DNA of 26,357 nt, from positions 1-26,357 of the IMG/VR virus record IMGVR_UViG_3300007734_000955; one strand, given 5' to 3'. The position numbers and the translations under genes are program-made. How positions within the stretch are numbered: the stretch's first letter is position 1; every line of letters begins with the position of its first letter. This document shows, piece after piece, positions 3-24,204 of the stretch. Source of the stretch: a virus. The notes beneath the pieces were generated by a model, which saw only the letters and a program-made list of their open reading frames with translations, was not told where the DNA came from and ran no database searches.

Positions 3-755
3 TATCTCAAACGAGAAGGCATCATATCACCAAATAAACCAACAACACACAATCCATCTTTAAAAATGGCAAATGAAACATATGCTGGAGGATACATACT
101 TGAACCAGTGCCAGGCTTGTACTTTGATGTTATAGACTTAGACTTTACATCACTGTATCCTTCAATTATCAAGTCTTTAAACTTAGGCATTGAAACATTA
201 GTAGGCAGAATTAAAGTAGATCATAATCCAACATATGAACAAAATCACTCATTGGAAAAGCTCAAACAAAGAGATCCAAATGAAATAGTAAATATTGAAA
301 AGTTAAACAAAGAAAATTATACTCTTAAATCAACCAAAATAAAATTAGGAGACTTAATTGACATAGTTGAAAAAAACAACTTTACAGTAGCAGCGTCAGG
401 AGCCATGTTTAGAACTGATGAACAAAGTATTTGTTCTACTATTTTACAAGGCTGGTTTGAAAAACGAGAACATTATCGAGCACTAAAGAAAAAAGCAGGT
501 AAAGAAGAGGATTGGGCAAATTATAAATTATATGATTTATTTCAACATGCATTTAAGATCTTACAGAACGCAATGTATGGTACATATGCTAAAAATGGTT
601 GGAGGTATACTGATGGTCATTTGATTTGTAGTGCAGCCATAACTAATAGTGGACAGCGCCTCACTATGTCTACTATAGATTTTGTAAATGATAAAATAAA
701 CAATGAATATTTACAATTAAACAAAGAAGAATTAATATTTAAGTTTAATCTTTAA
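3..755 (+). CDS. 43A: Family B DNA polymerase, N-terminal-side fragment of a split gene (5' end outside window)
   Basis: This is the polymerase-domain part of a T4 gp43-like replicative DNA polymerase. The frame is open to the window edge, and the sequence before the ATG at 66 still reads as polymerase, so 66 is not the true start. Counting from that internal Met, motif A (DFTSLYPSII) begins at residue 26 with its metal-binding Asp. Motif B (KILQNAMYG) spans 164-172 with the conserved Lys, Asn and Tyr-Gly. The reading frame stops at 755, before motif C. Motif C is found about 1 kb downstream in a separate gene (1783-2667). The last residues, roughly QLNKEELIFKFNL, lie in a tandem repeat and may be partly foreign. 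Split gp43 genes are known in some T4-like phages, where the two proteins work together. I expect the same here but cannot show it. Confidence 0.9.
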   Translation, partial: YLKREGIISPNKPTTHNPSLKMANETYAGGYILEPVPGLYFDVIDLDFTSLYPSIIKSLNLGIETLVGRIKVDHNPTYEQNHSLEKLKQRDPNEIVNIEKLNKENYTLKSTKIKLGDLIDIVEKNNFTVAASGAMFRTDEQSICSTILQGWFEKREHYRALKKKAGKEEDWANYKLYDLFQHAFKILQNAMYGTYAKNGWRYTDGHLICSAAITNSGQRLTMSTIDFVNDKINNEYLQLNKEELIFKFNL

Positions 756-896
756 TATGTATAACATATACTACAAATATGAAAAAATCTGAATTACGTC
801 GAATATTTACAATTAAACAAAGAAGAATTAATATTTAAGTTTAATCTTTAATATGTATAACATATACTACAAATATGAAAAAATCTGAATTACGTC
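705..896 (+). repeat. Perfect 96-bp tandem duplication at the polymerase split point
   Basis: Positions 705-800 and 801-896 are two identical, directly abutting copies of a 96-base unit. The unit contains the last codons and stop of the polymerase fragment, an inverted repeat (ATATGT-ATA-ACATAT, at 755-769 and 851-865), and the first seven codons of the gene that starts at 875. In copy 1 the start at 779 runs into the second copy and stops after about 19 codons, so only the copy-2 start gives a full protein. The absence of any mismatch suggests a recent duplication or an assembly artefact. Confidence 0.95.
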
Positions 897-1360
897 AAAT
901 TATTAAAGAAGAAATATCTAAAGTATTAAATGAAAATATAAGTGATGATGGAATTGATCCTAATGATCTTGAATTATTTCGTGGTGGTGAACTTGAAGAA
1001 TTTAAATTTTTTTCTTCCTCAACAATTAAATCTTATAAAAATATAGGTAAAAATGTTCCTAGAGATGTAATCACCCAATTTTTATATCAATATAGAAATG
1101 ATCCTAAATTTAATTCTTGGATATATAATGAATATTTTGAGAGAGCTAATGATGAATTAGAACTAGGATTTGATGAAACAGATGAAATTAGTAGAATGGC
1201 TATGTATGATGATGAAAGTTGGAGAAGAGCTTTTGCTAATCAAGTTATAAAACAAACTCAAGAAAAAATAGGAAAAGGTTTTAAAGGAAGTGATGAAGCT
1301 GAATATCGAGTTGTTAGAATTATCATTAAAAAAGCATACGACGATAATAATCCATTTTAA
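875..1360 (+). CDS. Small acidic protein with possible capsid-targeting leader, inserted between polymerase halves
   Basis: The product has 161 residues and I do not recognise a domain in its body, which is acidic and rich in Asp, Glu and Tyr. The N-terminus MKKSELRQIIKEEISKVLNE is a short basic/acidic amphipathic helix. It is closely matched by the frameshifted gene at 1441 (MKIPELRQLIREEV). In T4, internal head proteins carry a short N-terminal capsid-targeting sequence that the gp21 protease removes after (L/I)xE. Here IKE and LNE fit that pattern, so delivery into the prohead is a reasonable guess, not a demonstration. The start is the second of two identical starts created by the 96-bp duplication; the leader is ACTACAAATATG with no Shine-Dalgarno. 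Its position inside the split polymerase marks it as an insertion. Confidence 0.8.
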   Translation: MKKSELRQIIKEEISKVLNENISDDGIDPNDLELFRGGELEEFKFFSSSTIKSYKNIGKNVPRDVITQFLYQYRNDPKFNSWIYNEYFERANDELELGFDETDEISRMAMYDDESWRRAFANQVIKQTQEKIGKGFKGSDEAEYRVVRIIIKKAYDDNNPF

Positions 1361-1361
1361 A

Positions 1362-1406
1362 TTTCCGAGTTTGAATCCAAATATTAAAAAATTCTTTGCT
1401 TTCTAA
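1362..1406 (+). pseudogene. Relic of a DNA polymerase 3' end (15 codons)
   Basis: Read in frame from 1362, this gives FPSLNPNIKKFFAF and a stop. The end of the intact polymerase C-terminal gene (2623-2667) gives FPPLNPNVGKFFAFN and a stop. The DNA also aligns, including the A-rich stretch after the stop codon (TAAAAAAAATACATAT against TAACTAAAAAAAACATAT). The copy is diverged and has no start or upstream polymerase sequence in frame, so it is a fossil. It shows that a polymerase 3' end once lay immediately upstream of the next gene, and that the split arose through recombination or replacement and not by a clean single insertion. Confidence 0.85.
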
Positions 1407-1415
1407 AAAAAATAC

Positions 1416-1431
1416 ATATTTATAACAAAAC
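1416..1431 (+). promoter_or_regulatory. ATATTTATAAC-AAAAC element, possible promoter
   Basis: This 16-mer differs at one base from the elements at 9352 and 12630, both of which sit just before homing endonuclease genes. It lies 9 bases before the start at 1441. It may be a phage promoter core. On the opposite strand it reads as the T4 late motif TATAAATA, which is the wrong direction for these genes. Confidence 0.4.
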
Positions 1432-1440
1432 TTAATAGAA

Positions 1441-1697
1441 ATGAAAATACCAGAATTAAGACAACTAATCCGCGAAGAAGTGCGAGAGGCTATCAACAAT
1501 AAAAATACTAGCGCTAAAAAGGCACATATGAAATAAAATATTTCACAGATGATGCAGGTAATAGAATATACTATGTAGAATTAGATGGAATAAAATTTGG
1601 TGACAACTATTCTGGAGATGGTACAATTCCAAGCGGCCCTAATGCCCCAACTCCTACAGCTGTTTTAAAACAACTATTAGGAACAGAGTATAAATAA
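1441..1697 (+). pseudogene. Frameshifted small gene with the same leader-type N-terminus
   Basis: The ATG at 1441 opens a 31-codon frame, MKIPELRQLIREEVREAINN..., that stops at 1534-1536. Another frame without a start codon continues from 1518 to a stop at 1697 and reads as normal protein (for example TDDAGNRIYYVELDGIKFG). Adding one A to the A5 run at 1516-1520 would join both into a protein of about 85 residues. The N-terminus copies the leader of the 875-1360 product with (L/I)xE-type sites. So this looks like a second leader-bearing small protein broken by a single-base deletion. A sequencing error or frameshifting during expression are alternatives; no classic slippery heptamer is present. 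A terminator follows. Confidence 0.7.
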
Positions 1698-1732
1698 AGT
1701 ACCTTACTAAAATAAAATAAATTTTTAAATTA

Positions 1733-1761
1733 AGAGCTTGGAAAACCAAGCTCTCTTTTTT
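1733..1761 (+). terminator. Rho-independent terminator upstream of polymerase C-part
   Basis: A perfect 9-bp stem (AGAGCTTGG / CCAAGCTCT) with an AAAA loop is followed by C and six T. It closes the inserted block and isolates the second polymerase gene, which therefore needs its own promoter or a processed or read-through transcript. The hairpin overlaps a TTG that could be misread as the polymerase C-part start. Confidence 0.9.
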
Positions 1762-1776
1762 ATATTTAAACAAATA

Positions 1777-1785
1777 AAAGTTATG
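1777..1785 (+). promoter_or_regulatory. AAAGTTATG start-region motif, polymerase C-part
   Basis: The last three bases are the start codon at 1783. The longer form AATAAAAGTTATG is present. This fixes the start at 1783 and not at the TTG at 1738 inside the terminator. Confidence 0.6.
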
Positions 1786-3695: not shown

Positions 3696-3704
3696 AAAGT
3701 TATG
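3696..3704 (+). promoter_or_regulatory. AAAGTTATG start-region motif, groES
   Basis: Leader is AAAGTAAAGTTATG, with the start codon at 3702. Confidence 0.55.
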
Positions 3705-3992
3705 AAGTTAACAGCTGTATTTAACAGTATCATTGTCAAACCCAAAACAGAAGAAGAAACTACTTACGGAAACATTATTGTTCCTGACTTAGGAAAGGAA
3801 AAATCTCTAATAGGCACTATTGTGTCTGTAGGTCCTGGTTACTACTGCGCAACAGGAGAATTTGTAGCTTCAACATTAAAAGTAGGTCAAAAGGTAATTT
3901 TGCCTCAAATGGGACCAACTAAAATTGAATTTGAAGGAGAGGAATACTACGGAACAGCAGAAAATCAAGTAATCGCAATTATAAACGACTAA
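3702..3992 (+). CDS. groES: Phage GroES-type co-chaperonin
   Basis: A 96-residue protein, the usual GroES length. It caps the GroEL ring and supplies the mobile loop that docks on the apical domains. The GroES pattern is clear: SIIVKPKTEEETTYGNIIVPD near residues 9-29, with the mobile loop in the middle, then GTIVSVGPG at 38-46, VGQKVILP at 62-69, and a C-terminal TAENQVIAIIND. It is much closer to bacterial GroES than to T4 gp31, which replaces GroES in T4. Only 9 bases separate it from groEL and both have the same start motif, so the pair is one operon. Confidence 0.92.
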   Translation: MKLTAVFNSIIVKPKTEEETTYGNIIVPDLGKEKSLIGTIVSVGPGYYCATGEFVASTLKVGQKVILPQMGPTKIEFEGEEYYGTAENQVIAIIND

Positions 3993-3995
3993 AAC

Positions 3996-4004
3996 AAAGT
4001 TATG
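3996..4004 (+). promoter_or_regulatory. AAAGTTATG start-region motif, groEL
   Basis: The motif fills most of the short gap after groES and ends in the start codon at 4002. Confidence 0.55.
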
Positions 4005-5630
4005 AACAAAAACATTGAATTTGGTTCTGAAGCAAGAAAAAAACTTGTTAGCGGAATCAACAAGGTAGCCAACGCAGTTACCTCAACATTAGGACCAAAT
4101 GGTCGAAATGTCATTTACACTGAATACGGTGAAGTGAGAAGTACAAAGGATGGAGTTACAGTTGCAAAACAAATTTCAGACCTAGAAGATCCAATTGAAA
4201 ATTTGGGCGTTCAGATGATTAAACAAGCATCTATCAAAACCGCTAACAACGCAGGTGACGGAACAACTACTTCAACCTTACTAGCACAAGCAATCATTAA
4301 TGAAGGTTTGTCTTACTTAGACAAAGGAGCAAATGCGGTAGAAATTAAAAGGGGCATTGACTCAGCTGTAAAAGAAGTAGTAGTATGTTTACGCAAAGAA
4401 GTGTCTAAAGACATTACTTCAGAAACTCAACTAGAACAAGTAGCCACTATTTCTGCAAACAACGATCCTGAAATTGGAAAGTTAATTGCCGCAGCAATGG
4501 AAAAAGTAGGTCGTGAAGGAGTAGTTCACATTGAAGAGTCTAAAAGTGGAGAAACATATCTTGAAACAGTAGAAGGAATGCAATTCGACAGAGGATATAA
4601 GTCACATTATTTTGTCACAGACAACAACTCAATGAACTGTACCTTAGAAGAACCATACATTTTGATTGCTGATAAGAAATTTACTCAAGCCAAAGACTTA
4701 CTACCTATTTTAGAAGGCATTTCAAGCCAAGGAAAATCATTGTTGATCATTGCTGAAGACATTGAAGCAGAAGCATTGTCAACATTAGTAGTAAATAAAA
4801 TCAGAGGCACAATTAAAGTAGCAGCAGTAAAAGCTCCTGACTTTGGAGATCGTAGAAAGTTAATTCTTGAAGACGTTGCTACAATGACTGGTGGACAAGT
4901 GTTTAGCAGTGAAAAAGGCATGAAGTTAGACAAGTTTTCTTGGGATTGGTTAGGAAGTGCTCGTTTAGTTACAATTACTAAAGACCAAACAACAATTGTT
5001 GATGGTAAAGGAACAGTTGAAAAAATTGAAGAAAGAATTGATGAACTGCAAATACAAATTGACAAGTCAACAGTACCATTTGAAAAAGAAAAATTACAAG
5101 AACGTTTAGCAAAGTTTATAGGTGGAGTAGCAATTATTCATGTTGGAGGAAATAGTGAATTAGAAATGAAAGAAACTAAAGACAGAGTAGATGATGCTTT
5201 ACACGCAACAAAAGCAGCCATTGAGGAGGGCATAGTACCAGGAGGAGGAGCCGCATTGTTATACGCTAGAGAAGCCATTACTGAAAAAGAAATAAAATTT
5301 GGCTCAGACATTCACATTGGTAAAAAAATCGTTTACAAAGCATGTGCCGCTCCATTTATGAAAATTTTAACAAACGCTGGACACACTGAAGGAGAATGTT
5401 ATGGATTGATTAATGGTTTAGGTAGTGATGACAATTGGAAAGGATACAACATTAAAAGTGGAATATTTGTAGACATGAAAGAGGCAGGCATCATTGATCC
5501 AACTAAAGTAACAAGAAGTGCTTTAGAAAATGCAGCATCAGTTGCTGGAGTAGTATTGTTAACTGAAGCATTAATAGTAGAAGTAAACAATGACAAAAAA
5601 GAAGAACCAGGTATACCTGGAATGTACTAA
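4002..5630 (+). CDS. groEL: Phage GroEL chaperonin, full length
   Basis: The product has 542 residues, essentially the size of cellular GroEL (about 545), and should form the ATP-driven folding ring. Signature segments are intact: STLGPNGRNV and KDGVTVAKQI in the N-terminal equatorial domain, the ATP-site GDGTTTSTLLAQ, apical VEGMQFDRGY, and DALHATKAAIEEGIVPGGG with the catalytic Asp. It also keeps a short version of the GGM tail, ending GIPGMY. Nothing suggests inactivation. A phage that carries both chaperonin parts probably uses them for its own abundant proteins, such as the capsid protein, or because host GroEL fits poorly. The Asn and Asp codons match the replication genes, so it does not look like a recent acquisition. 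Confidence 0.95.
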   Translation: MNKNIEFGSEARKKLVSGINKVANAVTSTLGPNGRNVIYTEYGEVRSTKDGVTVAKQISDLEDPIENLGVQMIKQASIKTANNAGDGTTTSTLLAQAIINEGLSYLDKGANAVEIKRGIDSAVKEVVVCLRKEVSKDITSETQLEQVATISANNDPEIGKLIAAAMEKVGREGVVHIEESKSGETYLETVEGMQFDRGYKSHYFVTDNNSMNCTLEEPYILIADKKFTQAKDLLPILEGISSQGKSLLIIAEDIEAEALSTLVVNKIRGTIKVAAVKAPDFGDRRKLILEDVATMTGGQVFSSEKGMKLDKFSWDWLGSARLVTITKDQTTIVDGKGTVEKIEERIDELQIQIDKSTVPFEKEKLQERLAKFIGGVAIIHVGGNSELEMKETKDRVDDALHATKAAIEEGIVPGGGAALLYAREAITEKEIKFGSDIHIGKKIVYKACAAPFMKILTNAGHTEGECYGLINGLGSDDNWKGYNIKSGIFVDMKEAGIIDPTKVTRSALENAASVAGVVLLTEALIVEVNNDKKEEPGIPGMY

Positions 5631-5696: not shown

Positions 5697-5804
5697 ATGG
5701 ATTATCAAAAAACAAGGACAAGCATAAAATCAATACTAAAGACACTTACTTTAGTAAAACAAAACGAACAAATATTAAAAAAATTACAAAATGGAAAATT
5801 TTAA
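5697..5804 (+). CDS. Possible 35-residue basic peptide
   Basis: A short frame between groEL and the next gene encodes MDYQKTRTSIKSILKTLTLV followed by KQNEQILKKLQNGKF, a basic amphipathic helix. It overlaps the start at 5791 by 14 bases, which would allow coupling. A 7-bp hairpin (ACTAAAG / CTTTAGT, 5735-5755) lies inside it. No family is recognised, and the frame could be chance in a 160-base gap. Confidence 0.3.
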   Translation: MDYQKTRTSIKSILKTLTLVKQNEQILKKLQNGKF

Positions 5805-6324
5805 TTTAAAAAAATTCTTAGTAGAAAATAAACTAACTACCAACTCCAAGTTATTGGAAGCAGAAAGAGCAGTACCAACTCCAGAAGAAGCAGCTGCATT
5901 AGCAACAAAGGCAGTAGGTAGATTGGAAAATGATCCCGATATAAATAAAGCTGCAGATGCTATAGCAAAAAATCCCAAAGCATTAGAACAACTAAAAAAT
6001 GTATTAGCAAAAGCAGGAATCAATCCCACTGAACTATCAGAAACTATAAATAGGGCTGTTGTACAGAAGTTAGCTTTGGTAATGGCAAAGAAGTCGCAAG
6101 AGGTAGCAGAAGGGGCAGATTATGGAGGGCCAATTTTTCTAGGACTTGTAGGAGGAGGAGTACTGGGAAGTATTCTTGACTCTGTGGGAGATGTTGTATA
6201 TAGTGCTCACAATATTATTATGGGAGCGCCAAATCCTTCTCATATGACAGCGATAGTATTAGGAGCAGCAGCAGGAGCTGTATTAGCAGCTATTGCTAAA
6301 AAGGTGTTCGACGGTATGTCATAA
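5791..6324 (+). CDS. Membrane-segment protein with leader-like N-terminus
   Basis: The product has 177 residues. The N-terminus MENFNLKKFLVENKLTTNSK followed by LLEAE resembles a leader and contains LxE-type sites (LLE at 21-23) of the kind the T4 prohead protease cuts. Residues 25-105 are Ala- and Lys-rich helices. The C-terminal part holds two hydrophobic Gly/Ala-rich stretches (about 112-135 and 151-170) that could cross or insert into a membrane. No family is recognised. A small virion-associated or injected protein would fit, as would a membrane-acting one; both are inference. A strong terminator follows at 6353, ending the chaperonin unit. Confidence 0.8.
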   Translation: MENFNLKKFLVENKLTTNSKLLEAERAVPTPEEAAALATKAVGRLENDPDINKAADAIAKNPKALEQLKNVLAKAGINPTELSETINRAVVQKLALVMAKKSQEVAEGADYGGPIFLGLVGGGVLGSILDSVGDVVYSAHNIIMGAPNPSHMTAIVLGAAAGAVLAAIAKKVFDGMS

Positions 6325-7605: not shown

Positions 7606-8151
7606 ATGAAATCAAATTTAACAGAAAAATTATTGTCAATATGTGGAAACTCAAGGGAGGGTTTTAGCATTAACAATTCAACAGAAGAACAACGTGTTCA
7701 AGTAGAAGTAGAACTTATCAAACACTTTGAATTTGATAAAATTGTATGGATGGACTTACCTACAGGACTAACAGAAGATAAACAAACAGCAATATCTGCA
7801 AAGTCTTTAAAAATATCAGACTCAGACAATCCAACTTACAAACATAAAGTAGGATATGTTTACACAATATCATTTACTCCAAAAATGTATGATCCAGGAG
7901 AAATGTACAAACCAGTAAAAGATGGTTGTGTGTTTGGTCCTATTATATACAATCCAGAAACATTTGAGCCAAAACAAAGTATTACTATATCTTGGTCACC
8001 TGAGTTTCCTCAAGACATTGATGCTCCAGTAAGAACATTAGAAGACGATAAACAAATGGTTCGTGATATGTTAGAAAAGGTACTAGACAATCCTGAAGAG
8101 TATAGACCAAAAGGATACATAGGATGTCTTTTAAGATTCACAGCAATATAA
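7606..8151 (+). CDS. Unknown protein, 181 residues
   Basis: An unrecognised protein with a mixed alpha/beta pattern. A central strand-rich region (KVGYVYTISFTPKMYDPGEM, then SITISWSPEF) is followed by an acidic helix (EDDKQMVRDMLEKVLDNPEE). An AAAAAGTTATAA sequence about 20 bases before the start looks like a displaced version of the AAAGTTATG motif, but the start codon is the later ATG after AAATAAATC. No catalytic residues can be named. Confidence 0.75.
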   Translation: MKSNLTEKLLSICGNSREGFSINNSTEEQRVQVEVELIKHFEFDKIVWMDLPTGLTEDKQTAISAKSLKISDSDNPTYKHKVGYVYTISFTPKMYDPGEMYKPVKDGCVFGPIIYNPETFEPKQSITISWSPEFPQDIDAPVRTLEDDKQMVRDMLEKVLDNPEEYRPKGYIGCLLRFTAI

Positions 8152-8156
8152 AAATA

Positions 8157-8165
8157 AAAGTTATG
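8157..8165 (+). promoter_or_regulatory. AAAGTTATG start-region motif
   Basis: The AATAAAAGTTATG form sets the start of the next gene at 8163, excluding an in-frame upstream ATG at 8124 that lies within the previous gene. Confidence 0.6.
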
Positions 8166-8381
8166 ACTCAAAATGCCTATATTGAAGTAATGCAAGACCG
8201 TTTAGACTGGTGTGTTGAAAAAGAACGTTATGAAATGGCTGCTAAATTAAGAGATTTAATTATATATGAAAGCACAGATGATAAGAAATTTAAACACCAA
8301 TATTATCTTAATTTGCTTAAAAAATATGCTCCTGAATGTCCTGAGTTTTATGAGACAATGAAGAAGAAATACAATTTTTAA
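8163..8381 (+). CDS. Small protein with a UVR-like helical motif
   Basis: The product has 72 residues. The stretch LDWCVEKERYEMAAKLRDLI (residues 14-33) matches the pattern of the UVR motif, a helical hairpin used by UvrB, UvrC and the Clp adaptor McsA for protein contacts. The rest has no recognisable domain. A small adaptor in the replication cluster would be a sensible role, though it is inference. It ends 9 bases before the clamp-loader gene and shares its start motif. Confidence 0.75.
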   Translation: MTQNAYIEVMQDRLDWCVEKERYEMAAKLRDLIIYESTDDKKFKHQYYLNLLKKYAPECPEFYETMKKKYNF

Positions 8382-8384
8382 ATA

Positions 8385-8393
8385 AAAGTTATG
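8385..8393 (+). promoter_or_regulatory. AAAGTTATG start-region motif, clamp-loader ATPase
   Basis: AATAAAAGTTATG begins in the previous stop codon and ends with the ATG at 8391. In T4 the equivalent gene 44 is a classic target of RegA at its start region. Confidence 0.6.
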
Positions 8394-9320
8394 TCAAAAA
8401 GGTTACACACAATATTAAATGAAAAGTATCGTCCAGACACTTTAGAAGGATACATTTGTAAAGATGAAGTGAAAGCTAAATTTCAAGAATTCATTGACAA
8501 ACAAGACATTCCACACCTCCTATTTGCAGGAAAACCAGGCGCAGGAAAAACAACACTTGCAAAAATATTAGTCAACAACATTGACTGTGACTTTCTTTAC
8601 ATAAATGCTACAGATGAGAGAAGCATAGACATTATGAGAGACAAAGTAGGAGCATTTGCTGCTGCTGGTAGCTTTGCACCACTCAAAATAGTGATATTGG
8701 ATGAAGCAACTCACATTTTACAAGCAGGACAAGTCATTTTGTTAAACATGATGGAAACATATTCTTTAACTACTCGTTTTATTTTAACAGGAAACTATGC
8801 AGAACGACTTATAGAACCTTTAAGAAGCAGATGTCAAGAATTTGACTTGTCTCCCCCAAGTAAAAAAGTAGTGGCACAACATGTTAGCATTATCTTAGAC
8901 AAAGAAGACATTGAATATGAAATTCCTGATTTAGTCACTATTGTAAACAAGTTTTATCCTGACTTTAGAAAAATCATCAACAACTGTCAAAAGTACACTA
9001 TTGATGGAACTTTAACATTAGACAACTCAATAAATGAATCTAATGACTATCAAGTAAAAATACTAGAAGAATTAAAAAAACCATCTACTAAGTCGTTTAA
9101 TGTTATAAGGCAAATTGTTGCAAATTCGGAAGTAGATGACTTTGAAAGTTTATATAAATTTTTATACAATAAATTAAATGAATATGCTAAAGAAAATGAA
9201 GGTACAATTATATGTACTTTGGAGGAACATATGTATCACGCTCATTTTGTTTTGGACAAAGAGATAAATATTATGAGCACTATTTCTCGTGTATTGGAAA
9301 TCATTTCTACTAAAAAATAA
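8391..9320 (+). CDS. 44: Clamp loader large subunit, AAA+ ATPase (T4 gp44-like)
   Basis: A 309-residue AAA+ ATPase (T4 gp44 is 319) that loads the sliding clamp. Motifs seen: the N-terminal EKYRPDTLEGY typical of clamp loaders, Walker A GKPGAGKTT at 47-55, Walker B KIVILDEATH at 99-108, sensor 1 TGN at 133-135, and the SRC arginine-finger motif at 146-148. Its usual partner is gp62, probably the gene at 11005; in T4 these two genes are adjacent, here they are separated by a homing endonuclease and small genes. Asn codon usage switches abruptly near 9026, from mostly AAC to all AAT up to the stop, the end next to the homing endonuclease. Confidence 0.93.
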   Translation: MSKRLHTILNEKYRPDTLEGYICKDEVKAKFQEFIDKQDIPHLLFAGKPGAGKTTLAKILVNNIDCDFLYINATDERSIDIMRDKVGAFAAAGSFAPLKIVILDEATHILQAGQVILLNMMETYSLTTRFILTGNYAERLIEPLRSRCQEFDLSPPSKKVVAQHVSIILDKEDIEYEIPDLVTIVNKFYPDFRKIINNCQKYTIDGTLTLDNSINESNDYQVKILEELKKPSTKSFNVIRQIVANSEVDDFESLYKFLYNKLNEYAKENEGTIICTLEEHMYHAHFVLDKEINIMSTISRVLEIISTKK

Positions 9321-9351
9321 TTGAACGTTTGTTTCCTTATCCATTTTGACA

Positions 9352-9367
9352 ATATTTATAATAAAAC
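9352..9367 (+). promoter_or_regulatory. ATATTTATAATAAAAC element before HNH endonuclease
   Basis: Identical in all 16 bases to 12630-12645 before the GIY-YIG gene. The ATG follows immediately, so if this is a promoter the mRNA would be leaderless or nearly so. Confidence 0.45.
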
Positions 9368-10075
9368 ATGGATTATCAAAGAATATACAGTCAAATAATA
9401 GAACGTGCTAAAATTCGTCAAATACAAGGTTATAAAGAAAAACACCATGCCATACCTAAATGTTTAGGTGGATCAAACAATAAAGAAAATATAGTAGAAC
9501 TAACAGCAAGAGAACATTTTTTATGTCATCGTTTATTGGTTGAAATTTATCCTAAAAATGAAAAACTAAAATATTCTTTATGGTTAATGGCTACAGGAAA
9601 ACGAAGATGGAAAACAGCAGAATCTTATTGTATTAGTAGTAGAACATATGAATCTGTAAAATTAGAATTTTCTAAATTAATGAAAACCAAAAAAACAAAT
9701 TTAGGTAAAACATTTTCAAAAGAAACTAAATTAAAACAAAGCTTATCTCATTTAGGAAAAAAAGATAGTGAAGAAACTAAAAAGAAAAAAAGCCAAATTA
9801 AATTAGGACATGTAAAAGATAATGAATGGAAGAAAAATCTTTCTGAATCAGCATCAAAATCTTTCGGACGACCTATTTTACAAAAAGATCTTAAAGGTAA
9901 TGTAATTAAGGAATGGGAAACAGGTAAAAAAGCATCAACTGAGTTAGGATTAAGTTACATGGCTATCAATGCATGTTGTGTTCAAAATGAAAAACACTTA
10001 CCAAGAAAAAGAGATAAATTAAAAATTGGAAAATACGTTTCCCTTAATTATATTTGGGAATATAAAAAAATATGA
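9368..10075 (+). CDS. Free-standing HNH homing endonuclease
   Basis: The product has 235 residues. The HNH/His-Me core runs about 22-62: HH at 26-27, Asn at 41, His at 50 and 54, within HHAIPKCLGG and LTAREHFLCH. Basic Ser/Lys repeats of NUMOD3 type (for example TFSKETKLKQSLSHLGKK) follow, then a NUMOD1/helix-turn-helix-like C-terminal DNA-binding module (RPILQKDLKGNVIKEWE and a helix pair). It is selfish: it cuts alleles lacking it and spreads by repair. It sits between the clamp-loader ATPase and the next gene, which starts within its stop codon (ATGA). Asn codons are nearly all AAT (I count one AAC). Confidence 0.9.
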   Translation: MDYQRIYSQIIERAKIRQIQGYKEKHHAIPKCLGGSNNKENIVELTAREHFLCHRLLVEIYPKNEKLKYSLWLMATGKRRWKTAESYCISSRTYESVKLEFSKLMKTKKTNLGKTFSKETKLKQSLSHLGKKDSEETKKKKSQIKLGHVKDNEWKKNLSESASKSFGRPILQKDLKGNVIKEWETGKKASTELGLSYMAINACCVQNEKHLPRKRDKLKIGKYVSLNYIWEYKKI

Positions 10076-10530
10076 AAAATAATAAACATCAAATGCTGTA
10101 CGCAGCAAATAAATTAAGAGATATTTTATTATCAATTGAAAATATTCTTGAGGGATATGAAGGTATAGAAGGTAATAAAAACTATGTAAAGTATTGTCAA
10201 AGCAAAGTAAAGCAAGCTAATGAAGATGATGCTACATTGAAGCAAATTTATGATGATACATATAATGTAGATATGGCAAAACGAAAAGCTATAAATGTTG
10301 CACCACTTTATAAAATAGTAGAGAAGTATTTTAAAATATTGGATGACATTGATACAGCTAGTGATATGTTTAAACCAAAATGGTGTAAAATTACTAAAGT
10401 TGTATCTTATCTTGAACAACTTCGTTGGATTTATTGTATTGTTGAAAATGAAAGAAATGAAAATGGTGACATGATAATAAATGGAGAGTGTTTTAAAAAA
10501 GAGGAACGTATATTTTTATCATTAACATAA
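10072..10530 (+). CDS. Unknown helical protein
   Basis: A 152-residue protein overlapping the homing endonuclease stop by four bases. It appears wholly helical (for example LRDILLSIENILEGYEG and LYKIVEKYFKILDDID) and has three Cys without a metal-binding spacing. No family is recognised. It may have travelled with the endonuclease, since the two are coupled and both are AAT-rich, or it may be an ordinary phage gene downstream of the insertion site. Confidence 0.7.
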   Translation: MKNNKHQMLYAANKLRDILLSIENILEGYEGIEGNKNYVKYCQSKVKQANEDDATLKQIYDDTYNVDMAKRKAINVAPLYKIVEKYFKILDDIDTASDMFKPKWCKITKVVSYLEQLRWIYCIVENERNENGDMIINGECFKKEERIFLSLT

Positions 10531-10536
10531 TAAACT

Positions 10537-10777
10537 AACAATCAAATAAACAAAAAAAAAATGAGCCAAGAACAATTAAAAATGAAAATGGAAACATTAG
10601 AAGAATTAGAACAACGTTTAGCTGAAGTTAATAAAAAGAAAAACATTGCTGTACGAGCAATGGAGTACGAAAACGCTGCTAGACTCAGAGAAGAAGAAAG
10701 AACACTATTAAAATTAATCGAAGAAAAACAATCAAATAAACAAATATGAGCAACGAACAATTAAAAATGAAAATGGA
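10537..10777 (+). repeat. Direct repeat spanning two leaders and gene starts
   Basis: The segment AACAATCAAATAAACAAA-...-ATGAGC plus the following codons for QLKMKM occurs at 10537-10592 and again at 10727-10777. Differences are a longer A-run in the first copy and a few bases in codons 3-4. The repeats precede and open two otherwise unrelated genes, 10561-10749 and 10746-11003. Confidence 0.8.
10561..10749 (+). CDS. Small coiled-coil protein with UVR-like motif
   Basis: A 62-residue, highly charged helical protein, predicted coiled coil over most of its length. AMEYENAARLREEE (33-46) matches the UVR pattern, as in the gene at 8163. Its first 10 residues (MSQEQLKMKM) are nearly the same as those of the next protein (MSNEQLKMKM), a result of the local DNA repeat. 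The function is unknown; a protein-protein adaptor is possible. It overlaps the next gene by ATGA. Confidence 0.7.
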   Translation: MSQEQLKMKMETLEELEQRLAEVNKKKNIAVRAMEYENAARLREEERTLLKLIEEKQSNKQI

Positions 10778-11003
10778 CATCACTCAGTCCACTCCCATTC
10801 TTTCAGAAGATGGAAAACCAATACTACTAGCTGAAGGAGCGGTTTTAAGAAAAATGAGTAAATTTCTAGCAGGAACAGCTGAGGATGCTTTAATTCCAAT
10901 TCCTGTTATGTATAATGTTAGCACTAACAAGATTCTTTTAGACATGATTCCTAAAGAAATTAGAGATGATTATAAAGACATTGGTTTTACTTTAGGAAAA
11001 TAA
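10746..11003 (+). CDS. Small unknown protein
   Basis: An 85-residue protein. After the repeated N-terminus it has a strand-helix pattern (PILSEDGKPILLAEGAVLRK, then IPIPVMYNVSTNKILLDMIP). The spacing EDGKPIL...GAVLRK...KILLDMIP looks conserved-family-like, but I cannot name the family. It precedes the likely clamp-loader small subunit by one base. Confidence 0.7.
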   Translation: MSNEQLKMKMDITQSTPILSEDGKPILLAEGAVLRKMSKFLAGTAEDALIPIPVMYNVSTNKILLDMIPKEIRDDYKDIGFTLGK

Positions 11004-11004
11004 T

Positions 11005-11451
11005 ATGACAAAAACATCTAGTAAAGTAAAGACATTTACCATCTTTGATTTTCTTAAAGCAATCATTGACACAAAACCAAATTGGGACACATTTGGACCT
11101 GAACAAAGAAAAGTGTTTAACATATACATGATTCATAAATTTTTAAGCATGAATCCAAAGTATGTTGACATTGCCAACTACATTCAAAAGTTAAACATTC
11201 AAGATCCTAAAAAATTGTATGAAGTGTACTGTTTTATGATTCCACAAAGTAAAAACACTTACTCTCCTTACATTAAGTCAACTGTTAAAAAAACCTTGCC
11301 ACCTGAAGTGCTTCAGCATGTTTCTGAATATTTTAAATGTTCAACAGTTGAAGCAGAAGAATACATTCAAATTACAGATGATAAATGGCTGGAAAATGTT
11401 TTGCTAAGTAAGGGAGTTGACGAAAAACAAGTTAAAAAATTAATCAAATGA
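11005..11451 (+). CDS. 62: Probable clamp loader small subunit (T4 gp62-like)
   Basis: A 148-residue helical protein. It fits the gp62-like pattern of an N-terminal IFDFLKAI helix, a region about keeping phage working as NIYMIHKFLSMNPKYVDIAN, a central YCFMIPQSKNTYSPYIK resembling the conserved PK(x)R-type segment, and a C-terminal YFKCSTVEAEEYIQI helix pair. T4 gp62 is 187 residues and cyanophage versions are shorter. It would complete the loader with the ATPase at 8391. No catalytic residues exist in this family, so the call rests on pattern and position. It overlaps the next gene by ATGA. Confidence 0.6.
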   Translation: MTKTSSKVKTFTIFDFLKAIIDTKPNWDTFGPEQRKVFNIYMIHKFLSMNPKYVDIANYIQKLNIQDPKKLYEVYCFMIPQSKNTYSPYIKSTVKKTLPPEVLQHVSEYFKCSTVEAEEYIQITDDKWLENVLLSKGVDEKQVKKLIK

Positions 11452-11663
11452 TAAAATACACAGAATACACTCCCGATTCAATTGTTCAAACAATTGTAGA
11501 AAAATTTGTTGACAGAGCTAAAATGGGAGAAAAAAAATACGGTGTAACATTAGACAGAGTTGACTTATCAATTGAAGACTTTATTGAACATGCCTTGCAA
11601 GAACATATGGACGCCATTTTATATCTTCAAAAAGTAAAAACAATGTTAAAATCTAATGGCTAA
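11448..11663 (+). CDS. MazG-like nucleotide pyrophosphohydrolase-type small protein
   Basis: A 71-residue protein resembling small phage proteins of the MazG/all-alpha NTP-pyrophosphatase group: RAKMGEKKYGVTLDRVDLS followed by an acidic helix, EDFIEHALQEHMDAILYLQK. The E/H/D residues of that helix would be in the place of metal ligands. It is much shorter than full MazG, so it may be only a half-domain that dimerises, or a related non-enzymatic family. Catalysis is not shown. It overlaps the nuclease gene by eight bases. Confidence 0.5.
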   Translation: MIKYTEYTPDSIVQTIVEKFVDRAKMGEKKYGVTLDRVDLSIEDFIEHALQEHMDAILYLQKVKTMLKSNG

Positions 11664-12603
11664 AAACAAAATTCCTTCCATCATAAAGAAAATACAGGCA
11701 TACAAGCCAACAGCTGTAGACTATGCTTTTCAAAAGAGCATATCTTACTCACAACTGTCAATGTTTTTATCTTGCCCTAAAAAGTGGTCTTTACAGTATA
11801 AGGAAGGACATAAAATACCTAGTTTTTCTATCAACATGACTTTTGGCACTGCAGTGCATGAAACACTGCAAAATTACCTGTCTGTGATGTACAATGAAAG
11901 TGGAGTAAAGGCAGATGCTATAAACATAGAAGAATACTTTGAAGAAAGATTTAGAGAAAACTATGCAAAGGGCTATAAGGACAATAAAAATGTTCACTTC
12001 AGCAGTCCAAAAGAAATGAGAGAATTCTATGATGATGGTTTAGCCATTTTAGACTTCATCAAGAAAAAGAGAAGTGAATATTTTAGTTTGAAAGATTGGC
12101 ATTTAGTAGGAATTGAAATGCCCATTGTTATTGCGCCAAATAAAACGCATAACAACGTTTTATTCAATGGATTTATTGACTTAGTCTTATACCATGAACC
12201 TACAAATCAATTCATTATATACGACATAAAAACTAGCACTCGTGGATGGAAAGACAAAGAAAAGAAAGATGAAGTTAAACAATTTCAAATATTGTTGTAC
12301 AAGTCATTTTTTAGTGAACAGTTTGGAGTAGATGAAGAAAACATAGATGTTGAATTTTTTATAGTAAAAAGAAAAATATGGGAAGAAAGTGAATTTCCTC
12401 AAAAACGCATTCAACAGTTCAACCCTGCAAATGGCAAAACAAAAGTTAAAAAAGCCAAAACAGCATTGGGCACTTTTATAGAAGAAACATTTAATCTTGA
12501 TGGTTCATATAAGACTGTAAGTCACCAAGCAACACCGTCAAAATGGGCTTGTGCATATTGTCCTTACCGCCAACTAAAATCATTATGTTCAGAAGGAATA
12601 TAA
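11656..12603 (+). CDS. RecB/Cas4-like PD-(D/E)XK nuclease, probable Fe-S type
   Basis: The product has 315 residues. SYSQLSMFLSCPKKW (about 30-44) is the usual N-terminal signature of RecB-family nucleases; GTAVHE (65-70) supplies the His. FIDLVLYH with Asp175 and YDIKTS with Asp190 and Lys192 form the catalytic core. Four Cys (C40, C299, C302, C311) match the one-plus-three arrangement that holds a 4Fe-4S cluster in Cas4 and AddB. It probably degrades or trims DNA ends in recombination-dependent replication. No CRISPR or Cas genes are nearby. It overlaps the MazG-like gene and is followed by the GIY-YIG endonuclease. Confidence 0.82.
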   Translation: MAKNKIPSIIKKIQAYKPTAVDYAFQKSISYSQLSMFLSCPKKWSLQYKEGHKIPSFSINMTFGTAVHETLQNYLSVMYNESGVKADAINIEEYFEERFRENYAKGYKDNKNVHFSSPKEMREFYDDGLAILDFIKKKRSEYFSLKDWHLVGIEMPIVIAPNKTHNNVLFNGFIDLVLYHEPTNQFIIYDIKTSTRGWKDKEKKDEVKQFQILLYKSFFSEQFGVDEENIDVEFFIVKRKIWEESEFPQKRIQQFNPANGKTKVKKAKTALGTFIEETFNLDGSYKTVSHQATPSKWACAYCPYRQLKSLCSEGI

Positions 12604-12629
12604 TTACATAGATTTTTTATATTTTTGTA

Positions 12630-12645
12630 ATATTTATAATAAAAC
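12630..12645 (+). promoter_or_regulatory. ATATTTATAATAAAAC element before GIY-YIG endonuclease
   Basis: Perfect repeat of 9352-9367. The preceding bases are also alike (ATTTTTGTA here, ATTTTGACA there), so similarity extends to about 25 bases. The start codon is 7 bases downstream. Confidence 0.45.
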
Positions 12646-12651
12646 ATAAAT

Positions 12652-13455
12652 ATGAAAAATCTAGGAATTTATAAAATAACGAGCCCTAGTGGTAAAGTTT
12701 ATATAGGACAATCAACTGAGATAGATAATAGATGGAAATATTATTCAAAAGTAAAATGTAAAGATCAACCTAAACTTTATAATTCACTTAAAAAATACAG
12801 TTGGGAAAAACATATGTCTGAAGTTATAGAAGAATGTTTAGTTGAACAATTAGATGAAAAAGAAATATTTTATAAACAACAATTTATAAATGAATTTGGT
12901 TGGAATAAAGCATTATTTTGTCATTTAATTGATGGAAAAGGAGGATATAAAAGTCAAGAAACTAAAGATAAAATAAGTAAGGCAAATAAAGGAAGAAAAC
13001 ATTCTACAGAATCATGTTTAAAAAAATCAATGTCACTTATGGGAAGAATTGAATCTGAGGAAACTAAAAAATTAAAAAGTAAAAGCAATATGGGTGTAAG
13101 TAGAGGTAAAGGTATTCCTAAATCAAAAGAACATATACTAAAAACTAGTAAAAGTTTACGAAAACCTATCCTCCAATATGATTTACAGGGGAATTTTATT
13201 AAAGAATGGGAAGGGAGAATTGAAGTTAAAAAAATACTAAATTTAGATGTAAATTCATGTATAAACAAAAAGGCCAAAACATCAGGAGGATACATATGGA
13301 GAAAAAAAACAGATCCACTTCCTCCTAGGTTTGATTTAGAAATGTTTTTGACAAAAAAAGATAAAGGAGTTAAAAAACATATGTCTAAACAACATAAAGA
13401 AAACATAGGAAAAGCCTTAAAAGGAAGAAAAATAATATGGAATACCAAACCTTAG
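12652..13455 (+). CDS. Free-standing GIY-YIG homing endonuclease
   Basis: The product has 267 residues. GIYKITSPSGKVYIGQS (5-21) is the GIY-YIG signature, with Arg27 (DNRWKYY) in the place of the catalytic Arg and an acidic EKEIFYKQ segment further on for the Glu. Basic NUMOD3-type repeats (SQETKDKISKANKGRKHS and similar) follow, then the module KPILQYDLQGNFIKEWE and a NUMOD3-like tail near the C-terminus (HKENIGKALKGRK). The KPILQ module nearly copies that of the HNH enzyme at 9368 despite a different catalytic domain. It is inserted just after the RecB-like nuclease gene. No inactivating lesion is visible. Confidence 0.92.
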   Translation: MKNLGIYKITSPSGKVYIGQSTEIDNRWKYYSKVKCKDQPKLYNSLKKYSWEKHMSEVIEECLVEQLDEKEIFYKQQFINEFGWNKALFCHLIDGKGGYKSQETKDKISKANKGRKHSTESCLKKSMSLMGRIESEETKKLKSKSNMGVSRGKGIPKSKEHILKTSKSLRKPILQYDLQGNFIKEWEGRIEVKKILNLDVNSCINKKAKTSGGYIWRKKTDPLPPRFDLEMFLTKKDKGVKKHMSKQHKENIGKALKGRKIIWNTKP

Positions 13456-13525
13456 TAAAGATTTATACAATGAGGCGATTTTAAAGTAGAATACATATAT
13501 TTATATATAACCAATATATACTACT

Positions 13526-13693
13526 ATGGATGAAATACTCACATCAGTAAAAGTTAACAAAGAAATATTTGACACTTTTAAAATAGAATGCATTAAACGT
13601 AAATTTTCTTTAAATAAGCTTGTAAATCGAGCAATGGATTTATATCTTAACTCAGAAGAATTTAGAAAACAAGTTACCAATCACAATAAATAA
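13526..13693 (+). CDS. Ribbon-helix-helix DNA-binding protein
   Basis: A 55-residue protein with an Arc/MetJ-like layout: a short strand (TSVKVNK) followed by two helices (EIFDTFKIECIKRK, then SLNKLVNRAMDLYLNSEE). Such proteins dimerise, insert the strand pair into the DNA major groove and usually repress transcription. Start is the ATG at 13526 after ACTACT. An AT-rich ATACATATATTTATATATAA lies about 15-35 bases before it and may be both promoter and operator. It sits just before the glycosyltransferase block, so it is a candidate regulator of that block. Confidence 0.65.
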   Translation: MDEILTSVKVNKEIFDTFKIECIKRKFSLNKLVNRAMDLYLNSEEFRKQVTNHNK

Positions 13694-13709
13694 ACACTAA
13701 ACAAGTTAT

Positions 13710-15155
13710 ATGAATTCAAGTTTTGCCTATTTGCCTCAAAATGAGAGGAAAAAAATCATGCTCATTTGTGACGACATTCGAGTACACTCAGGAGTAGCAA
13801 CTGTTGCTCGAGAAATGGTTCTTAACACAGCCCAACACTTCAACTGGATACAAGTTGCAGGAGCACTAAACCATCCAGACAAGGGTAAAAAATTAGACAT
13901 TTCTCAAGACACTAATCTTAACACAGGATTGACAGACAGTTCAATTGCCATTTATCCAGTAGATGGATATGGTGACGCTAATTTAATTAGACAACTTATT
14001 AAAATTGAAAAACCTGACGCTGTATTTTTAATCACTGATCCAAGATATTTCATTTGGCTGTTTCAAATTGAAAATGAAATTAGAAGAAAAATTCCCATTG
14101 TTTACTTAAACATTTGGGACAACTATCCAGCTCCAATGTACAACAGACCATACTATGAAGCATGTGATGCATTGTTAGGCATTTCTAAACAAACTGTAAA
14201 CATCAACAAGTTAGTGTTAGGAGATAAAGTAAAAGATAAAATAATTGAATATGTGCCTCATGGATTAAATCATGATTTATTCAGACCTTTTTCCAATGAG
14301 GAAAAGAAAAATCCTGAATATGTTAAATTTAAAAATGAAATGTTTAAAGGAAAAGAATATGACTTTGTTTTATTTTTCAACTCAAGAAACATTCGCAGAA
14401 AACAAATTCCAGACACTTTACTAGCATATAAATTGTTCATTGATGAATTGCCTAAAGAAAAAGCAAAACGTTGTGCTATAATGTTACACACTCAAATATG
14501 TGACGACAATGGAACAGATTTAGCAGCAGTAAAAGAATACTTATTTAGTGACGATGAAAAATACAACATTTTGTTTTCACCAGGAATGTTAAATCCTCAA
14601 CAAATGAGCTATTTATACAACTTAACAGACGCTCAAATATTGTTAACAAGCAATGAAGGTTGGGGATTAGCATTAACAGAAGCCATTTTATGTGGAAATG
14701 TAATTGTAGCAAATGTAACAGGAGGAATGCAAGACCAAATGCGTTTTGTAAAAGATAAAAAATGGATGGAATTAGACGCTGATTTTCCTTCCAACCACAA
14801 TGGCACAGTTAAAGAACATGGAGAATGGGCCTTTCCAGTATTTCCAACTAGCAGATCAATTCAAGGTTCTCCTATTACTCCATACATTTGGGACGACAGA
14901 TGCACAGCTGAAAATGCAGCATTACAAATTAAAGCAGTTTATGACTTAAGTAAAGAAGAACGTAAAGCAAGAGGATTGAAAGGTAGACAATGGGCTTTAA
15001 GTGATGAAGCAGGATTAACAGGAGAAAAAATGGGTCAAAGAATCATTAAATATTTAGACATTTTGTTTTCAACTTGGAAGCCAAGAGCAAAATTTGAACT
15101 TATCAACACCAAAAATGTAGAAAAAAGAGTATTAAATCATAAAATTATATATTAA
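13710..15155 (+). CDS. GT4-type glycosyltransferase (GT-B fold)
   Basis: A 481-residue retaining-type glycosyltransferase, likely cytoplasmic. The N-terminal Rossmann lobe opens with KKIMLICDDIRVHSGVATVA. The C-terminal lobe carries the EX7E motif in SNEGWGLALTEAILCG, whose glutamates bind the sugar nucleotide. No membrane segment or signal peptide is seen, so the acceptor is probably a protein, DNA or a soluble glycan. Asn codons are a mix of AAC and AAT, closer to the replication genes than the later members of the block, so this may be a resident gene. Start after AACAAGTTATATG, a near match to the AAAGTTATG motif with the ATG displaced by two bases. Confidence 0.85.
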   Translation: MNSSFAYLPQNERKKIMLICDDIRVHSGVATVAREMVLNTAQHFNWIQVAGALNHPDKGKKLDISQDTNLNTGLTDSSIAIYPVDGYGDANLIRQLIKIEKPDAVFLITDPRYFIWLFQIENEIRRKIPIVYLNIWDNYPAPMYNRPYYEACDALLGISKQTVNINKLVLGDKVKDKIIEYVPHGLNHDLFRPFSNEEKKNPEYVKFKNEMFKGKEYDFVLFFNSRNIRRKQIPDTLLAYKLFIDELPKEKAKRCAIMLHTQICDDNGTDLAAVKEYLFSDDEKYNILFSPGMLNPQQMSYLYNLTDAQILLTSNEGWGLALTEAILCGNVIVANVTGGMQDQMRFVKDKKWMELDADFPSNHNGTVKEHGEWAFPVFPTSRSIQGSPITPYIWDDRCTAENAALQIKAVYDLSKEERKARGLKGRQWALSDEAGLTGEKMGQRIIKYLDILFSTWKPRAKFELINTKNVEKRVLNHKIIY

Positions 15156-15835
15156 TGAAATTATTAAAATTATTATTAGAAATATACAAAGAAGAATATA
15201 ATTTAAATTTAACAGAAGGTTTAATTAAAACTACAAATATAGGAAAAACTCTAAACATTTTAGAAAAAAAATATTCTTCAAAATTTATATTTTCTAAATC
15301 TAAAAATTCATTTTCTATTAAGACTTTTAGTACTGACATAAATGCTTTAAACAATGGAATTATTAAAGATGCAAATAATTTAGGATGGTTTCCTTCATAT
15401 GTAGAAACAGAAGAATACACAGGTAAATGGAATGAAAAATATTTTAAAGAAGGTGAAATTAAGTTAAGATTTGAAGCCAAATTTGATGAAGAAATAGTTG
15501 AAAACATACCGGATATTTTATACCATATTACTCCAACTCAAAATGCTGATAAAATTTTAAAAATAGGACTAGTTCCTAAATCAAGATCAAAAGCATCATA
15601 TCATCCTGACAGAGTTTATTTATCTAAAGATTTAAAAGATGTAGAAAATTTAGGTGAAATGTTTTTTCAAAAAACAGGAATAAATGATTGGACAATATTA
15701 AAAATAAAAACAGATATGGTTCCTGGGGATTATTTAAAACTATATACTGATCCTAATTATAAACAAGGATATTATACATTAAATAACATACCTTCACAAG
15801 CAATAGAAAAAATTAAAGATATAAACATTAAATAA
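15155..15835 (+). CDS. Possible ADP-ribosyltransferase-fold protein with leader-like N-terminus
   Basis: The product has 226 residues. The C-terminal half has the pattern of the Tpt1/KptA and DarT-like ART fold: ILYHITPTQNADKILKIGLV (121-140) with His124, then HPDRVYLSKDL (150-160), and a closing GYYTLNNIPSQAIEKI. The first 110 residues are a separate domain I cannot name. The start, MKLLKLLLEIYKEEYNLNLT followed by EGL, is helical with an LTE site, loosely like the leaders at 875 and 1441. T4 packages an ART (Alt) into its head with a cleaved leader. A head-packaged effector here is a hypothesis. AAT-rich and placed between two glycosyltransferases, it looks inserted. Confidence 0.55.
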   Translation: MKLLKLLLEIYKEEYNLNLTEGLIKTTNIGKTLNILEKKYSSKFIFSKSKNSFSIKTFSTDINALNNGIIKDANNLGWFPSYVETEEYTGKWNEKYFKEGEIKLRFEAKFDEEIVENIPDILYHITPTQNADKILKIGLVPKSRSKASYHPDRVYLSKDLKDVENLGEMFFQKTGINDWTILKIKTDMVPGDYLKLYTDPNYKQGYYTLNNIPSQAIEKIKDINIK

Positions 15836-15840
15836 AATTT

Positions 15841-17178
15841 ATGAATAGTAAAAATACATGCGTAATCTACGCACCAGTAGATACATTATCAGGTTACGGT
15901 TCTCGATCTCGAGACACAGTTAAATCAATCATTGAATTGAAAAAAGATGAATGGGATTTTAAAATTATACCTTGCAATTGGGGAAACACTCCAAATGGAT
16001 TTATTGAAGACAATCCTGAATGGCATTTTTTAAACAAATATCTTTATCCACAACAACTTACCACTCAGCCAGATGTTATGATTTGGATTACTGTGCCAAA
16101 TGAATTTCAAAAAGTAGGAAAATACAACATTGGCATAACTGCAGGTTTAGAAATAAACATGGTACCTGCTGAATGGATTGAAGGAATGAACAGAATGGAC
16201 TTAACATTAGTGTCATCAGAACATTCTAAAAAAGCATTTTTAGCGTCTAAATTTCAAAAAGTAAATGACACAACAAAACAAGTAGAAAGTATTGTTGAAA
16301 TGAAAACACCTATTGAAGTAATATTTGAAGGTGTTGACACAAACATTTACAAACACTTAGAAGTGCCTAACAAAAAAATAGGCAACCTAGATTCAATTTC
16401 TGAAGATTTTTGCTACTTGTTTTTAGGACATTGGCTTCCAGGTGACTTAGGAGAAGACAGAAAAAATGTAGGACTGCTAATTAAAGCATTTATAGAAACA
16501 TTTAAAAATAAAAAAGTAAAACCTGCTCTTATTTTAAAAACATCTTTAGTAGGTTCATCATACATGGAACGTGATGAAATTTTAAAAAGAATTGAACAAA
16601 TTAAATCAACATGTGCCACTGTAGACATGCCTAACATTTACTTGTTACATGGAGAATTTACAGATGAGGAAATAAATGAATTGTACAACCATCCAAAAGT
16701 AAAGGCAATGGTTTCACTAACTAAAGGCGAAGGATTTGGAAGACCACTACTTGAGTTTACTCAAAGTAAAAAGCCAATTATAACAACAAATTTCAGTGGT
16801 CATTTAGATTTTTTAAAGCCAGAATTTACAACTTTAATCAATGGTGTTTTAACGCCTGTTCATCCAAGTGCTGCAAACAATATGTTGTTGAAAGAAGGTT
16901 CATGGTTTTCACCTGACACAGGTCAAGTAGGATTTTACTTAAAAGACATGTTTGAAAATTATAAAAATTATGTTGATGGAGGAAAAAGGCAAGGATTTTA
17001 CTGTAAACAAAATTTCTCATTTGAAAAAATGACTGAAAAAATGTCTGAGTATCTTAAACGCATTCCTGAATTTCCAAAACAAATACAATTAAAATTACCT
17101 CAACTTCGTAAAATAGAGTTGCCTTCTTTAAAGAAAATTGAACATAAAAATTTAGAAAATATTACAAATCCAAAATAA
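15841..17178 (+). CDS. GT4-type glycosyltransferase (GT-B fold)
   Basis: A 445-residue glycosyltransferase with an N-terminal lobe starting NTCVIYAPVDTLSGYGSRSR and a C-terminal lobe with the EX7E motif in LTKGEGFGRPLLEFTQSKK. The C-terminal 30 residues are a Lys/Leu/Pro-rich tail (about 410-445) with tandem-like LPQLRKIELPSLKKIE repeats, perhaps for binding a partner. No membrane segment. It is distantly like the 13710 enzyme in layout but not a recent duplicate. It directly follows the possible ART gene. Confidence 0.85.
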   Translation: MNSKNTCVIYAPVDTLSGYGSRSRDTVKSIIELKKDEWDFKIIPCNWGNTPNGFIEDNPEWHFLNKYLYPQQLTTQPDVMIWITVPNEFQKVGKYNIGITAGLEINMVPAEWIEGMNRMDLTLVSSEHSKKAFLASKFQKVNDTTKQVESIVEMKTPIEVIFEGVDTNIYKHLEVPNKKIGNLDSISEDFCYLFLGHWLPGDLGEDRKNVGLLIKAFIETFKNKKVKPALILKTSLVGSSYMERDEILKRIEQIKSTCATVDMPNIYLLHGEFTDEEINELYNHPKVKAMVSLTKGEGFGRPLLEFTQSKKPIITTNFSGHLDFLKPEFTTLINGVLTPVHPSAANNMLLKEGSWFSPDTGQVGFYLKDMFENYKNYVDGGKRQGFYCKQNFSFEKMTEKMSEYLKRIPEFPKQIQLKLPQLRKIELPSLKKIEHKNLENITNPK

Positions 17179-17179
17179 A

Positions 17180-17719: not shown

Positions 17720-17738
17720 ACAAACAAAACAAAAAAAT

Positions 17739-18200: not shown

Positions 18201-18229
18201 TCCTTTTTGTGATCTTTATAAACTCTACA

Positions 18230-18240
18230 ATATTTATAAT
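18230..18240 (+). promoter_or_regulatory. ATATTTATAAT element before third homing endonuclease
   Basis: ATATTTATAAT matches the core of the elements at 9352 and 12630, but the ATG at 18243 is only two bases away. If it is a promoter, transcription would start inside the first codons, so it may instead mark the edge of the mobile unit. Confidence 0.35.
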
Positions 18241-18242
18241 CG

Positions 18243-20326: not shown

Positions 20327-20327
20327 T

Positions 20328-24203: not shown

Positions 24204-24204
24204 A

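Follow-up and report, generated by a model that had tools for sequence, protein, structure and literature searches.

A T4-type DNA polymerase gene split ahead of motif C, with putative capsid-targeted cargo genes between its halves

In the Aeromonas phages 44RR2.8t and 25 (43A/43B), a T4-type family B DNA polymerase is encoded by two adjacent genes, one gap holding an endonuclease and the other none. The two gene 43 products of phage 25 co-purify and show activity, and invasion of an already split gene by the endonuclease has been argued, with the order of events left open (PMC2988022). Acinetobacter phage ZZ1 (gp43A/gp43B) has six small non-endonuclease ORFs between its halves. Other essential genes cut by a homing endonuclease are the mobE-split nrdA of Aeh1 and the mobA-split topoisomerase gene of T4, whose products reassemble (PMC2988022). 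The T4 internal proteins IPI to IPIII and Alt combine a short conserved N-terminal leader with a variable body and a gp21-type protease, the cleavage motif of gp21 being L/I-x-E (PMC9026906); the internal proteins are injected, and IPI counters a restriction enzyme (PMC3012670).

We analyzed an IMG/VR virus record of 26,357 bases (hereafter the window, that is, the whole stretch of DNA) that opens with the 3' part of a T4-type polymerase gene. The host of this T4-like virus probably belongs to the Bacteroidota. Judged by the major capsid protein (57%), Flavobacterium phage immuto (Immutovirus) is the closest relative in culture. It has leader genes of our type C beside terminase/portal and a scaffold C-terminus with our type B motif; its genome gave no match to the C-terminal half of the window's polymerase. 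The gene is split near T4 gp43 residue 611, whereas the splits lie near residues 511 to 521, before motif B, in Aeromonas 44RR2.8t/25 and near residues 501 to 515 in Acinetobacter ZZ1, 90 to 110 residues upstream. The Aeromonas gaps contain no leader cargo genes, and the small ORFs of ZZ1 lack a leader. In contrast to nrdA of Aeh1 and the T4 topoisomerase gene, the endonuclease would be gone from the window, with putative cargo in place. The leader sequences differ from those of T4 IPI to IPIII and Alt, and the window's cassette, whose packaging is putative, lies inside a replication gene. T4-type gene 43 is already known to be split without an endonuclease (44RR, ZZ1), so the proposal in a first-pass annotation of this DNA that the locus is a possibly new kind of interruption is too strong; the position of the split and its cargo are the new variants here. 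Most novel is that the scar is reused for putative packaged cargo and was recently transferred, with no endonuclease now present.

The account that we favor, and consider likely as a whole, is as follows. In an ancestor of this allele, a homing endonuclease would have invaded the loop that precedes motif C and split the polymerase, the N-half acquiring a new tail and the C-half a start codon. The scar would then have turned into an ordinary gene boundary which, like the junction behind the polymerase gene, hosts swappable cassettes (promoter-like motif, capsid-targeting leader, variable protein, terminator) that recombine through their conserved ends. The present occupant is a leader gene together with a block derived from a polymerase-clamp junction, and homologous recombination would finally have carried split and cargo into an intact polymerase like that of contig L010 (related contigs are given L numbers).

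The polymerase halves and the insert

Two adjacent ORFs on the plus strand, as are all features of the locus given below, jointly cover one family B polymerase with its catalytic residues complete. The N-half (frame 3 to 755, 5' end off the contig) contains motif A (DLDFTSLYPS) and motif B (KILQNAMYGT) and ends in EYLQLNKEELIFKFNL with a stop at 755; the C-half (1783 to 2667, N-terminus MQNIIISDTDS) contains motif C and the thumb. Motif A and motif C are thus on separate proteins, as the first-pass annotation had stated. Alignment with T4 gp43 places the first C-half residue at position ~611, just ahead of motif C. Intact relatives read ...NDKINTEIKEKKQNICISDTDS... at this site, and only a short variable loop is replaced in the window, so no catalytic residue is missing, in agreement with the gp43 alignment. 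In an AlphaFold model of an intact relative (mean pLDDT 49, of which only local secondary structure was used), the loop is flanked by a helix and the motif C strands. The exonuclease domain lies beyond the contig edge; the N-halves of relatives (~582 aa) include it. No third functional polymerase segment was found within the window, a relic at 1359 to 1412 being the sole other fragment, and the C-half had no match in bacterial genomes. The two halves probably assemble into a working enzyme.

Between the halves lie a tandem duplication, a leader gene, a polymerase relic, a broken leader gene and a terminator, all as first annotated; no endonuclease gene was found at the split site in the window. 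The N-half closes with a split-specific C-terminal tail (699 to 755) whose DNA is common to splits with endonucleases and splits with cargo and absent from intact genes. The two 96-bp copies (705 to 800, including a truncated leader ORF at 779 to 838, and 801 to 896) are 100% identical; no counterpart was present in the relatives examined, and the duplication may be an assembly error. The small leader gene g1 (875 to 1360; 161 aa, leader MKKSELRQIIKEEISKVLNE) encodes a putative capsid-targeted cargo protein; no relatives of its body were found in IMG/VR, Pfam or PHROGs, and an AlphaFold model of g1 alone (mean pLDDT 44) was not usable. The relic (FPSLNPNIKKFFAF followed by a stop) resembles the polymerase C-terminus (61% over 18 residues), and its DNA is 91% identical to the polymerase 3' end in contig L109. 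The second leader gene, g2 (1441 to 1697, leader MKIPELRQLIREEVREAINN), is frameshifted. A DNA match of the insert at 15176 to 15255 was judged to be AT-rich chance.

The intrinsic terminator (1733 to 1762) has a hairpin at 1733 to 1754 (9 pairs, 4-nt loop, T tract; region fold z = -2.8); other leader genes are followed by the same unit. It is followed at 1763 to 1785 by a TATATTTA element and the AAAGTTATG start context of the C-half. The same context precedes the clamp, groES and groEL genes, with 8 occurrences in the window versus 0.86 expected. The terminator itself is real, and because the C-half has its own start context and TATATTTA element, the description of this half as transcriptionally isolated is fair; the two halves may be made at unequal levels.

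Leader genes and cassette exchange

Four classes of leader are found on differing bodies, i.e., a conserved leader is joined to a variable protein. L-x-E or I-x-E is present at the leader end (residues 16 to 21) in 11 of 13 type A leaders. The triplet of g1 lies within VLNE at the leader end; g2 is an exception, with no clear cleavage triplet. Only residues 16 to 21 of type A are used here; an enrichment over all leader classes (26/32 versus 292/982 other ORFs) was set aside, since the triplet is itself part of the patterns used to find two classes and part of a third, which made the comparison circular. A gp21-type prohead protease is encoded by 9 of the 12 relatives searched, and leader genes occur within head clusters. 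The type B leader core FKRMQKLAGI has look-alikes at scaffold C-termini (FARMRELAGL; SRWQKLAGIIK), as if the cargo mimicked the scaffold tail for co-assembly. From these features we infer that the leaders target the capsid, as do those of the T4 internal proteins, and g1 would accordingly be packaged.

It could instead be that leader genes are not packaged and that their conserved N-terminus serves as a tag of another kind, in regulation or in recombination. The lack of a family match for g1 and the strong similarity of leaders at the DNA level, as expected of a recombination anchor, are consistent with such a tag. We nevertheless find this doubtful, although it is the best placed of the alternatives considered here, as the L/I-x-E triplet occurs in several different leader classes, leader genes lie in the head cluster, the type B motif is found at scaffold C-termini and a gp21-type protease is present. 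By their leaders, a large number of so far unrecognized proteins become candidates for packaging into the head in T4-like phages whose hosts are probably Bacteroidota.

Several further genes have leader-like ends. The 3' ends of the scaffold genes in L156 (8921), L157 (7277) and L161 (16868) encode a C-terminal peptide like the type B leader. A type C leader gene (MENFNLKKFLVENKLTTNSKLLE) lies at 5791 to 6324 of the window, and the same leader is the one found beside terminase/portal in immuto. The product of 15155 to 15835 has a leader-like N-terminus (MKLLKLLLE...NLTE) and a body weakly resembling Tpt1/ADP-ribosyltransferases (Pfam 0.079, PHROG 0.01), which recalls T4 Alt; L075 (5516) and L084 (5894) encode comparable bodies behind type D leaders.

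Upstream of g1 is the motif TATGTATAA (852 to 860, also at 756 to 764). The corresponding consensus TATKTATAA is found upstream of 17 of 32 leader genes versus 77 of 982 other ORFs (p = 1e-10). It is sometimes just 2 nt from the ATG and fits a promoter poorly. Its identification as a T4 late promoter was rejected, the spacing to the ATG being too variable and the motif being absent before scaffold and capsid genes. A scan for sigma-70-like promoters gave no excess over shuffled sequences (44 versus 39.6). In the window TATKTATAA occurs at 756, 852 and 1417, and it also precedes leader genes in relatives.

The segment from 1360 to 1785 (relic, g2, terminator and start region of the next gene) was imported from a polymerase-clamp junction. 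It is collinear with the L109 sequence behind the intact polymerase, up to the clamp start codon; the next gene is the clamp in L109 and the C-half in the window. The homology begins at AATTTCCG, at the g1 stop codon, and the g2 homologue in L109 is intact (85 aa). In many relatives the polymerase-clamp junction is occupied by leader genes or endonucleases. The leader DNA of g1 is mostly 84 to 94% identical to leaders of otherwise unrelated genes. Judged by such sequence matches, the spread of leader genes is a modular exchange via conserved cassette ends. Similar small-gene cassettes were reportedly described in T-even phages by Repoila and colleagues in 1994.

Relatives split at the same site

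Scans with both polymerase halves gave ~140 loci, many on shared contigs. The same split is present in about 20 related IMG/VR contigs, and most contigs have an intact gene, which answers the earlier call for relatives with an uninterrupted polymerase at this site. Besides the window, 14 contigs have a gap at the split site; in another 6 (L049 to L054), the halves are only ~12 nt apart. GIY-YIG-type ORFs occupy the gap in L015, L019, L084, L055, L138 and L140 (that of L019 matching NUMOD1 at 6e-7 and GIY-YIG at 0.0066, below the curated cutoff). L006 has a leader gene there along with an ORF judged HNH-like by eye, and L069 has a treble-clef/DUF723 protein. The gaps of L013, L014/L016 and L076 contain leader genes, that of L004 a different small gene and that of L005 tail fiber-like genes spanning 4.2 kb. 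One site in one gene thus provides a natural series of intact, endonuclease-split, cargo-split and bare-split alleles, on which one can test how essential enzymes are broken up by selfish insertions and what use is later made of the scars.

The N-half tails of the split contigs are related (EYLxLxKEELIxKFxL), L138 and L140 excepted, and the tail DNA of the window is 78 to 85% identical to that of the endonuclease-bearing L015, L019 and L084. Endonuclease-like genes at the homologous site are joined to the same N-half tail in L006 and L069 as well. Since the tail DNA is common to endonuclease and cargo splits, both types share an origin, and the split of the window is best read as an endonuclease scar that cassettes would have colonized later. 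The statement in the first-pass annotation that the insert is not a homing endonuclease is therefore correct for the window itself; as to cause it is misleading, the same site with the same tail carrying GIY-YIG-type ORFs in L015, L019 and L084. Among the closest split relatives (L004, L005 and L013), no endonuclease is left at the site, so that an endonuclease-first order rests on the shared tail and on L069. L138 and L140 have a GIY-YIG-type ORF at the polymerase site, but their N-half tail differs, which indicates more than one origin of splits; theirs is probably independent.

In a tree, splits are scattered among intact alleles, e.g., L015 and L084 beside the near-identical intact L139, and the window clusters with the split L004, L005 and L013, with the endonuclease-bearing L069 next out. 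Endonucleases are thus found at the homologous site in relatives while the site is intact in siblings. In the GIY-YIG-type splits, the C-half start codon overlaps the endonuclease 3' end. These two observations, the first being the pattern expected of homing, argue against the alternative that the split predates any endonuclease, having arisen by intercistronic insertion or by stop and start codons, with endonucleases and cargo invading later and independently. That order would agree with the bare splits of L049 to L054, with the short untranslated gap in the split gene 43 of 44RR and with the order left open for phage 25 (PMC2988022). We regard it as unlikely and favor an endonuclease as the probable first cause.

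A mosaic polymerase and recent arrival of the split

The polymerase of the window is a mosaic. Positions 3 to 422 and 1966 to 2565 are mostly 92 to 100% identical to the intact L008 and L010, with a few lower bins for L010 in sliding-identity comparisons, whereas positions 423 to 705 and 1786 to 1965 are 53 to 85% identical to these and ~73 to 100% identical to split phages. The interior of this tract (428 to 1965, edges approximate) resembles the split L004, L005 and L013, and its left edge is abrupt near 428. L010, a sibling with an intact polymerase, is 99 to 100% identical to the window over 8148 to 17103. Unless the record is chimeric, the mosaic identity indicates a recent import of split and cargo into an intact lineage, a conversion event caught in a near-identical pair. 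The insert is not a new kind of interruption that arose in this phage; it came by recombination from a split relative.

A chimeric record would mean that a co-occurring intact L010-like phage and a split phage were merged in assembly, the 96-bp duplication being a k-mer artifact. The perfect tandem copies, the abrupt edges of the mosaic, the frameshift in g2 and the environmental nature of the IMG/VR record could all be explained in this way. Misassembly would, however, require two chimeric joins flanking the split within one gene, the inner segment is identical to no contig compared, and same-site splits occur in about 20 other contigs from many samples, so we hold it to be quite improbable. 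Inteins are known next to motif C in other family B polymerases, and the insert has this position, but a self-splicing intron or intein remnant can be dismissed for practical purposes. The insert had no match to Rfam intron families (E up to 1), the C-half opens with a start codon of its own, the N-half tail runs into a stop, and inspection of the N-half, the C-half and g1 by eye revealed no intein blocks.

We also advance, tentatively and at somewhat less than even confidence, the possibility that an endonuclease scar in an essential replication gene has become a permanent site for exchangeable proteins that are packaged in the capsid and injected, and that ordinary recombination, without any endonuclease, spreads the split allele and its cargo into intact lineages.

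Elsewhere in the window, phage groES and groEL (3702 to 5630) follow soon after the clamp gene, an order common to several relatives. Three more homing-endonuclease-like ORFs (HNH-like, GIY-YIG and zinc finger type, by eye) are found at 9368 to 10075, 12652 to 13455 and 18298 to 18972, between replication and other genes, and genes that by eye resemble those of glycosyltransferases and methyltransferases form a long run from 13710 to 25694.
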